DNA of 41,415 bases, from contig JALRCN010000128.1 in NCBI GenBank assembly GCA_023257295.1, positions 1 to 41,415 on the forward strand, given 5' to 3'. Made by a program: the position numbers and the translations under genes. Origin of the DNA: Nitrosomonas sp. Lineage in GTDB: Bacteria; Pseudomonadota; Gammaproteobacteria; Burkholderiales; Nitrosomonadaceae. Below, piece by piece: positions 26,882 to 30,046 of this stretch. The notes under the pieces were generated by a model. That model was not told the DNA's origin and searched no databases. It saw nothing but the letters and a program-made list of their open reading frames with translations. Each line of letters begins with the position of its first letter. Position 1 is the stretch's first letter.

Positions 26882-27886
26882 ATGCTGGATACTGAATTAT
26901 TAACTCCGCGCATTATCGATGTTCAGAACATTTCTCCATTGCATGCTCGTATCGTGATGGAGCCTTTTGAACGAGGCTATGGCCATACGCTAGGTAATGC
27001 ATTGCGTAGAATTTTATTGTCATCAATGGTTGGATATGCGCCAACTGAGGTGAAAATAGCTGGGGTAGTACATGAATACTCTTCGCTTGAAGGTGTTCAG
27101 GAAGATGTGGTTGATATTTTGCTGAATTTAAAAGGCGTAGTCTTAAAGTTGCACAATAAGGACGAGGCTATAATTACTTTAAACAAAAGCGGCAAAGGTA
27201 TCATTACTGCTGGAGATATTGAAACTGGACATGATGTCGAGATTATTAATCCAGAACATGTCATAGCACACTTAACTTCCGATACGGCAATTACCATTCA
27301 AATCAAAATTGAAAAAGGGCGAGGTTATGTTCCTGCCACTGTCAAGAGATCGAAGAATAGTGATAGCAGCATCGGTACATTATATTTGGATGCCTCTTTC
27401 AGTCCTATACGGCGAGTGAGTTACGCAGTCGAGAGTGCTCGTGTAGAGCAAAAAACAGACCTTGATAAATTGATTATCGATTTGGAAACGAATGGAGTTG
27501 TTGAGCCTGAAGAAGCAATAAGATATGCATCGCGTGTGTTAGTTCAACAGTTATCGGTATTCGCCGATTTAGAAAGCACTCCGCTTCCGAAGGAAAAACC
27601 GCAAACACCGCAAATTGATCCGATATTGCTGCGGCCAGTCGATGATCTTGAATTGACCGTGAGATCAGCAAATTGCCTAAAAGTTGAAAATATCTATTAC
27701 ATTGGAGACCTTATTCAGCGCACTGAGGCTGAGTTATTGAGAACTCCTAATCTGGGAAGAAAATCTTTAAATGAAATCAAAGAAGTATTGGCTGCCAGAG
27801 AACTGACACTTGGAATGAAATTAGACAACTGGCCACCACCTAATTTAGAGAATAATACAAAGGATTCGAATCATGCGACACAGTAA
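26882..27886 (+). CDS. rpoA: RNA polymerase alpha subunit
   Basis: Assembly platform and promoter UP-element/activator-binding subunit. The protein has 334 residues. The N-terminal domain has [20 protein letters not shown]. The C-terminal domain (about 250-315) includes [19 protein letters not shown] and [16 protein letters not shown]. The last 14 bases overlap the start of rplQ. A 32-base gap separates it from rpsD. Confidence 0.98.
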
Positions 27887-28268
27887 TGCATTTAGAAAGC
27901 TAAATAGATCAAGCAGCCATAGATCTGCAATGTTTAGGAACATGACAAATTCCTTGTTGAGGCATGAGATTATTAAAACGACTTTGCCTAAAGCAAAGGA
28001 ATTACGTCGTTTTGTTGAGCCGATGATCACTTTGGGAAAGACTGCAACATTAGCAAATCGCCGCATTGCTTTTGATCGATTGCGTGATCGTGATATGGTC
28101 GTAAAACTTTTTGCTGATTTGGGTCCGCGCTATACCTCTAGACCAGGGGGGTATGTGAGAATACTCAAGTATGGATACCGTAAAGGAGATAATGCGCCAA
28201 TGGCATTGGTCGAATTAGTCGATAGACCGATAGTGGGTTCAGATGCCCCGGAAACGGAAGACGCGTGA
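27873..28268 (+). CDS. rplQ: 50S ribosomal protein L17
   Basis: Tunnel-exit protein and usual last gene of the alpha operon. The protein has 131 residues. [20 protein letters not shown], the [18 protein letters not shown] block and [20 protein letters not shown] are diagnostic. No terminator is visible in the 40 bases before birA, so read-through is possible. Confidence 0.98.
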
Positions 28269-28308: not shown

Positions 28309-29294
28309 ATGAATCAGACAGCGCTGTCGATTTTGCGTCTTTTGTCCGATGGCGCTTATCATTCACTACATTCACTAGCTGAACGATTGGAAATTTCCGA
28401 GAAGCTGGTATCAAGAATCTTGAATGAGCAGATTTCGTCTGATATCGGTCTGATTGCGTCGAAGGATTTTTGTTATTGTTGGAAAAGTCCGATTCAATGG
28501 CTTGATAAAAACGCCATACGGGCTAATAAAAGCGATAGACACAACATTGATATTCAGCTATTTGATTGCATCGGTTCTACCAATGATTATTTAATCGATT
28601 CGATAAAAAAAAACCTTTAAGCAATCATCCGATACAAGTTGTTGCGGCAGAAGTCCAGATGCATGGGCGTGGCCGCATGCAGAGGAAATGGCTTAGTGGT
28701 TTAGGGGCTGGGCTTACGTTCTCGTTAAAATGGACTTTCCCCTCTACAGTTGTTAACTTACCCTCTCTCAGTTTATTAATTTCTCTTGCGGTTATCCGAG
28801 CACTCAGACGGTGCGCTCCGGTTGACGTCAAAGTTAAGTGGCCAAACGATATTATTTGCGGCTCAAAAAAATTGGCTGGCATTTTAATCGAAGGGCGGCA
28901 CGATGCTGCGACGGGAGCCTTTGTTGCAATCATCGGGATTGGCATCAATTTTAAGCTTCCAAATGAAATTAAGCTCGGTATCGCTAAAGAAGCGACGGAT
29001 TTGTTTGAAATAACCGGTCAAATACTGGATCGTAATTTGATTCTCGGCGTATTGCTCGATGAATTGATTGATATATTGAAGAGATTTGAAGTATCTGGAT
29101 TTGCGCCATTCAAGATCGGATGGATTAATCATCATGCATATCAAGGAAAATCGGTTAAATTGCTGATGCCTAATAACGAGGAAGTCTTTGGAACGATAAC
29201 CGGAATAAACGATGACGGCTCCCTTTGTTTGCAAACTACAGCCGGAACTCGATCTTTTTCGGTTGGTGAAATCTCGTTGCGGGATTTGCAATAA
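28309..29294 (+). CDS. birA: biotin-[acetyl-CoA-carboxylase] ligase BirA, split by an apparent -1 frameshift at A9
   Basis: BirA attaches biotin to the carboxylase carrier protein; with its N-terminal helix-turn-helix it can also repress biotin genes. Frame one (28309-28620, 103 codons) carries the HTH (SLAERLEISEKLVSRILNEQ) and the start of the ligase domain (LFDCIGSTNDYL), then stops. The next frame carries the rest: HGRGRMQRKW, catalytic KVKWPNDI, and the C-terminal domain to 29294. The switch falls in nine consecutive A at 28605-28613. A -1 shift there, or one extra A, gives a continuous product of about 328 residues (E. coli 321). It could be a sequencing error, a disabling mutation, or programmed slippage. 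Confidence 0.88.
28605..28613 (+). other. A9 homopolymer and A-AAA-AAC slippery site in birA
   Basis: In the zero frame the codons read ATA AAA AAA AAC CTT TAA. The last part fits the X-XXY-YYZ slippery heptamer (A AAA AAC). A run of nine A also invites RNA-polymerase slippage. A backward slip of one base leads to CCT TTA AGC and on into the rest of BirA. The zero-frame stop is only two codons downstream of the run. Confidence 0.7.
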
Positions 29295-29296
29295 TC

Positions 29297-30046
29297 ATGC
29301 AGCGGATATTGACGATCGATTCTGGAAATTCAAATATTAAATGGGGGTTATTTGAAGATGGATTGCTGGTAAAGAGCAATTGCGTGCCGTGCGAAAGTGC
29401 GGATTTGCTTGGCACCGAGTTTGCGCAGCTACCGGACCCGGATTCGATAATTGTTGCTCATGTGGCACGCAGATCGATCAGAACCAAACTGATTAAATTA
29501 CTATCGATTTGGCGTATTAAAATTCATTGGCTTCGAGCGGAGGCGCTGCAATGCGGCGTGCGCAATGGCTATATGAGACCCAGTCAATTAGGCAGCGATC
29601 GATGGGCAGCGTTGATCGCCGCTTGGCAATTACACCATCAATCTTGCCTGGTGATTAATGCCGGTACTGCGATGACGATCGATGCGCTATCTGACTCGGG
29701 AGAACACTTAGGTGGCATTATTTTGCCGAGCGCTTATTTGATGGCAAATTGCCTTTCTCGAGGTACGCAGCTGCCGCACATTGAATCGGGTGAGTTTGTC
29801 ATTTTTCCTGTTGATACATCCGGTGCGATATATTCCGGCACAATCCAAGCGTTGGTCGGTGCTATTGATCGAATGTATAATTCACTGGCCAGCAGAGTAA
29901 ATCATGCCAACAGTCGATGTATCGTTAGTGGTGGCGGTGCGCATGCTATTATTCCTCACATTCAATATCCTTATCAATTTATCGAATTCTTGGTTCTAAA
30001 CGGATTGGCTCTGATTGCCGGAGAAATTCAAGATAATCGAACATAA
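29297..30046 (+). CDS. coaX: type III pantothenate kinase
   Basis: First step of coenzyme A synthesis, phosphorylating pantothenate. The 249-residue protein belongs to the ASKHA fold. It has the phosphate motif [10 protein letters not shown] at 8-17, the pantothenate-region [25 protein letters not shown] and a late SGGGAHAI. Its ATG lies two bases after the birA stop. The birA-coaX pair is common in Betaproteobacteria, where this gene was first noted as Baf. No ribosome binding site is evident, so coupling to birA translation would make the birA frame state matter to both. Confidence 0.95.

Follow-up and report, generated by a model that had tools for sequence, protein, structure and literature searches.

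Expression of the biotin ligase gene birA in a Nitrosomonas lineage probably depends on RNA polymerase slippage at runs of nine or ten A's

The usual bacterial examples of transcriptional slippage are mobile elements, virulence genes, the Thermus gene dnaX and symbionts whose genomes are decaying. In Thermus thermophilus, dnaX is described as undergoing slippage on a run of nine (PMC1088944, PMC5009743). The tssM1 gene of Citrobacter rodentium carries an A11, and its full-length protein is reported to arise by slippage at about 20-25% (PMC4256274). Poly-A slippage and genes that are frame-broken at poly-A tracts have been described for Buchnera and Blochmannia (PMC5009743, PMC3017870), and transcriptional slippage serves expression of Shigella mxiE and type III genes (PMC3711429) and of IS-element transposases (PMC1088944). 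Neither birA nor Nitrosomonas was found in the main text of a study that surveyed 1106 genomes for frame transitions (PMC3711429), and we found no report of slippage or frameshifting in birA, or of slippage in Nitrosomonas, in the open-licence literature. A comparison of birA sequences across the genus makes it probable that birA in the lineage of the window (the entire stretch of 41,415 nucleotides analysed here) is expressed via RNA polymerase slippage on nine or ten A's.

In the window, birA (28309-29294, forward strand) is a single conserved protein that is written in two frames meeting at a 31-nt overlap. The features of the locus are:

27873 to 28268, forward strand: rplQ, the upstream neighbour, intact.
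28309 to 28620, forward strand: upstream (zero) frame of birA, 103 aa, with the winged HTH and the beginning of the ligase domain; it ends STNDYLIDSIKKNL, TAA.
28576 to 28584, forward strand: codons for the STN motif, conserved in the ligase domain, 5' of the break; E. coli BirA has DSTNQYL at the aligned position.
28587 to 28617, forward strand: stretch in which both frames are open; the frame change must take place here.
28587 to 29294, forward strand: downstream frame of birA, with the remaining biotin-ligase domain (GRGR, KWPND, KLAG, GIGIN) and the BPL C-terminal domain.
28605 to 28613, forward strand: A9 run, the proposed slippage site, read xxA AAA AAA AAC in the zero frame.
29297 to 30046, forward strand: coaX, the downstream neighbour, intact, starting two bases past the birA stop.

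The zero frame closes with ATA AAA AAA AAC CTT TAA, in which the TAA occupies 28618-28620, and the break lies directly after STNDYLIDSI, within the ligase domain, whose STN motif we take to be a biotin contact. With one move of frame the joined product has about 328 aa. An earlier note on this DNA, made from the letters alone, had described the junction and its description stands: the two halves meet at the A9, the heptamer A_AAA_AAC has the phase that was given for it, and coaX starts two bases after the birA stop (29297 vs 29294). No recognisable BirA sequence is lost, as had also been claimed, since the upstream part aligns with residues 5-98 and the downstream part with residues 108-318 of E. 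coli BirA (1bia). The 2.0-Mb genome of the window holds 13 runs of at least nine A's on both strands together, and only that of birA comes with a recognisable frame break; the idea of a genome full of poly-A breaks was rejected on this ground. By rough arithmetic from the run density of this genome, the chance of such a run within the overlap is about 1 in 10,000, and the placement of the A9 at the junction exceeds chance.

The joined product has the N-terminal winged HTH, the catalytic and C-terminal domains, GRGR and KWPND of a Group II biotin protein ligase, with the same domain order and catalytic motifs as E. coli BirA (1bia). What sets the window's birA apart is its frame break, by which it lacks the one continuous reading frame of this group, and membership of Group II applies to the joined product, not to the frame as written. 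In Pfam, the downstream frame matches BPL_LplA_LipB and BPL_C, and the upstream frame matches the winged HTH PF13412 with 22.6 bits, barely over the cut-off of 21.9. Against an HMM built from 51 intact relatives, the window's upstream frame scores an E value of 9.8e-32.

The genus set comprised 85 genomes, 76 of them with a PF03099 match. Leaving out G085 and G087, which carry a distant ligase, 74 native-type birA genes were compared: 51 are continuous HTH-ligase genes, 17 encode a ligase without HTH in any frame and six are split. All six split genes break at an A9 or A10. Alignment of the relatives for the A-run and the break shows that G083 (A9) and G071 (A10) share the site of the window (A9), 59-60 nt before the GRGR codons; we refer to this trio as clade B. 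The other three, G078 (A9), G036 (A10) and G002 (A9), here clade A, share a site that precedes the GRGR codons by 203 nt and lies about 143 nt upstream of the clade B site. In each split gene, 16-31 nt are common to both open frames; this overlap covers the run or most of it, and in all six the HTH part lies in another frame and reaches the break region. In-frame runs of A9 or A10 occur in 4 of the 68 unsplit birA genes. One of these, in G092 (L068), is an A9 that precedes the GRGR codons by 52 nt; it lies near the site of the window and is possibly a forerunner state. In a family-wide search of 125 genomes, 40 of them from the other three genera, the matched birA frames of these genera have about 330 aa or more, except in G112 (285 aa, near a contig end) and G132 (a fragment); G120 and G148 gave no birA match in this search. 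Poly-A runs elsewhere in the other five split genomes were judged on open frames and not on homology. Among 28 distinct sites of at least nine A's, sampled from those listed, a clear break was seen only at birA of G078; at the remaining sampled sites an open frame spans the run, the run lies outside long frames or it is not readable as a break, and two (L119, L123) are ambiguous.

A BirA tree built by a quick method from the catalytic part recovers both trios as clades (SH-aLRT 99 and 100). Because the branches in the window's trio are long (0.41-0.86) and could mislead this tree, a second tree was built from the neighbour proteins RpsK, RpsD, RpoA, RplQ, EngB and HemB, with an alignment of 1384 columns that covers the window and 20 selected genomes. 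It supports both trios with 100/100, and the nearest relatives of G078, G036 and G002 in it, G006 and G025, are both unsplit. Downstream of the break, the BirA proteins are 48-54% identical within clade B and 53-62% within clade A; upstream of it, the values are 34-41% and 40-56%, respectively. The best reading of these comparisons is that the break in birA is ancient and had two independent origins at two sites.

A homopolymer error in sequencing or assembly, or a recent or phase-variable mutation, had been among the explanations offered in the earlier note. Homopolymers are the usual place of such errors, and the G083 assembly, 83% complete, consists of one 2.46-Mb contig, such as may result from error-prone long reads. 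However, the breaks occur in six genomes at two shared sites, each belonging to a clade, and in each genome the seven neighbour genes match in one frame over about 85-100% of their length. Phase variation would also leave a different trace, as none of the six runs has a length that gives an in-frame birA, which is the opposite of what is expected for an essential phase-variable gene. Error and recent mutation are thus contradicted by the break that G071 and G083, the closest relatives in the set, share with the window and by the conserved break that the second clade has of its own, and we find this explanation hardly credible.

The downstream frame by itself offers little from which a complete ligase could start. 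In clade B the STN motif is located upstream of the break, and downstream starts can therefore not include it; the first ATG, GTG or TTG of the downstream frame is at or beyond GRGR (the first ATG of the window at 28659). In five of the six split genes, the downstream frame offers no ATG, GTG or TTG able to start an STN-keeping ligase, and a GTG in G078 is the only start among the six that keeps the motif. A separate downstream start yielding a ligase was accordingly rejected for five of the six genes. These observations bear on the idea that both frames are translated separately and that the polypeptides assemble as a split ligase, or that the HTH fragment works alone. It would suit clade A, where the break falls between the HTH and ligase domains, and the 17 of 74 relatives without HTH indicate that an HTH-less ligase suffices in the genus. 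The missing starts in five genes and the position of the clade B break inside the ligase domain speak against it, and we judge it improbable.

Both halves of the split genes behave as coding sequence. All six comparisons of the downstream half show the most differences at codon position 3 and the fewest at position 2. The upstream half follows the same order in three of three clade A pairs. Among the clade B pairs, position 3 differs more often than position 2 in all three and more often than position 1 in two; in two pairs it is about level with position 1 (0.60 vs 0.57 and 0.57 vs 0.59). The codon-position pattern is similar in intact relatives, the catalytic motifs are kept and extra stops are absent from both halves. 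From these sequence patterns we conclude that both halves are under coding constraint. A decaying birA pseudogene, its task taken by another ligase, fits this poorly: the motifs and the constraint in both halves, identities of 48-62% downstream of the break and the lack of further stops all point the other way, as does the single gene in the window's genome, counting PF03099 ligases only. This explanation draws on G087 and G085, which carry a distant ligase in place of birA, and on G096, which has no birA at the locus; we consider it very improbable.

The genome of the window (G000; 2.0 Mb, 235 contigs, 99.44% complete) contains one PF03099 gene in a profile search, birA itself, and no second PF03099 ligase was found in it. 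The second birA that the earlier note had suggested looking for is thus absent among PF03099 genes. Each split genome has one native birA. The BirA substrate BCCP was found in all six split genomes and bioB in all 16 genomes tried, so a ligase is wanted in the split genomes. The bioB of G071 (L207, G071:C169, around 24179) looks split at first sight; a frame break was rejected here because an NN scaffold join, accompanied by a duplicated stretch, lies at this position. An AmoA match was obtained for one of the six split genomes, G083; we take the genus to be an ammonia oxidiser, probably Nitrosomonas.

Which machinery shifts the frame may be judged from the direction of the shift. One A more (or a ribosomal -1) is required in the window, G083, G071 and G078, and one A fewer (or a ribosomal +1) in G036 and G002. 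The needed shifts thus go in both directions within clade A, and polymerase slippage therefore fits better than ribosomal frameshifting. Runs of this length were also counted in a sample of 336 genes (323 kb in 20 regions of the genus; GC content 0.44), with synonymous codons shuffled within each gene; the sampled regions belong to related genomes and are not independent of one another. Runs of at least nine A's occur four times vs 8.3 expected (a count this low was reached in 6 of 200 shuffles), runs of at least nine T's not at all vs 10.8 expected (0 of 200 shuffles as low), and runs of six to eight A's or T's are undepleted. By this analysis, the genus avoids runs of at least nine A's or T's in its genes, as published for a slip-prone polymerase. 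Depletion of such runs in 108 genomes has been read as selection against slippage, with nine as a common run length (PMC1088944), and slippage on nine A's or T's is described as efficient in vivo and as yielding extra nucleotides (PMC5009743). Three sequence features expected of realignment by the polymerase are found together: an A or T run of at least about nine at all six junctions, a conserved and constrained junction, and avoidance of such runs in other genes.

The sequence A_AAA_AAN is a -1 frameshift site, and programmed -1 ribosomal frameshifting on A_AAA_AAC (A_AAA_AAA in G083 and G071) could likewise give full-length BirA. The heptamer is in phase in all three clade B genes, which all need the same shift, and -1 is the right direction for this trio and for G078, where heptamer and -1 need again occur together. 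Nine or ten A's being tolerated without a break in the four unsplit birA genes also weighs against slippage, as does the hairpin after the run of G002, a feature of the ribosomal type. What speaks against ribosomal frameshifting is that runs of this kind require the reverse shift in G036 and G002, and that the runs have 9-10 A's where 6-7 would be enough. No shared RNA structure was found after the run in the six genes (z -1.45, -0.35, 0.03, -1.87, -0.26 and -2.66), and no Shine-Dalgarno-like stimulator was seen by eye. The exception is G002 (L031) with a stable 12-bp hairpin 5 nt after its A9 (z -2.66), which the other five split genes lack. We regard ribosomal frameshifting as unlikely. Of the proposals in the earlier note, slippage-dependent expression is well supported by the comparison of relatives; for clade B taken alone, a ribosomal shift could supply the same product.

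RNA polymerase slippage would work as follows. The polymerase would slip on the A9 or A10, and part of the mRNA would gain, or lose, A's. Ordinary translation of the shifted mRNA would then produce the complete bifunctional enzyme, in the window a biotin ligase of about 328 aa, and mRNA of templated length would yield only a short protein that ends 0-22 nt past the run, in the window the HTH with the start of the ligase domain. We infer that the RNA polymerase and not the ribosome does the shifting, and that functional BirA would be the shifted product. A lower dose of ligase as a consequence is a guess. It is conceivable, and we offer it tentatively, that slippage is a selected device which sets the biotin ligase dose or uncouples the DNA-binding part from the ligase, that it arose twice by convergence in a genus of which other members lost the DNA-binding domain altogether, and that it was kept while the gene changed in many other ways and even the needed direction of slippage flipped.

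The fate of birA elsewhere in the genus bears on this point. No birA match was obtained in 9 of 85 genomes; six of these also lack the neighbouring rpoA and probably represent an assembly gap. In G096 (L243, G096:C274), listed as 99% complete, the gap between rplQ and coaX measures about 570 nt and tblastn found no birA remnant in it; G064 has no birA in the stretch after rplQ, and the contig of G024 ends soon after rplQ. Because G096 has no birA between rplQ and coaX, native birA is not indispensable in every member. In G087 and G085 (L058, L059) a distant biotin ligase of 261-262 aa without HTH is the only PF03099 match and is probably a replacement of native birA. The HTH-less birA genes (17 loci, for example L003, L010, L019, L046 and L091) suggest that HTH loss occurred more than once. 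BirA represses biotin genes through the BirA box. Boxes of the E. coli type and spacing were found in none of 16 genomes at up to 2 mismatches. Taken together, HTH loss, the absent E. coli-type box, the distant ligases and G096 would favour drift as much as selection for the breaks.

Most likely, birA expression that depends on slippage is an old trait with two independent origins in one betaproteobacterial genus. A housekeeping gene that is normally essential, and of which no other copy was detected, seems to have depended on slippage through divergence to about half identity, and two origins at two sites with opposite shifts provide a natural test of dose control, domain uncoupling or near-neutral drift. 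A caution for annotation follows, which will call slippage-bridged genes broken.

Among the described systems, Shigella mxiE and the type III genes as well as the IS transposases are, as reported, accessory or mobile, unlike birA. Buchnera and Blochmannia are AT-rich obligate symbionts; they resemble the present case in having frame-broken genes at poly-A tracts, whereas the genes sampled from the genus described here have a GC content of 0.44 and avoid runs of nine or more, and its breaks are common to clades. The tssM1 gene of C. rodentium is, like birA, interrupted shortly after a poly-A run. According to the published account, however, tssM1 is a secretion gene with an interruption near its 3' end, while birA is normally essential and breaks nearer to its 5' end, and the birA break, unlike that of tssM1, is conserved over deep divergence. 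T. thermophilus dnaX shares with birA that it is a housekeeping gene with a run of nine, for which two products by RNA polymerase slippage are described and, in birA, proposed. The difference between them is one of output: as reported, the templated length of dnaX encodes the full-length product, whereas in birA it would encode the truncated one.
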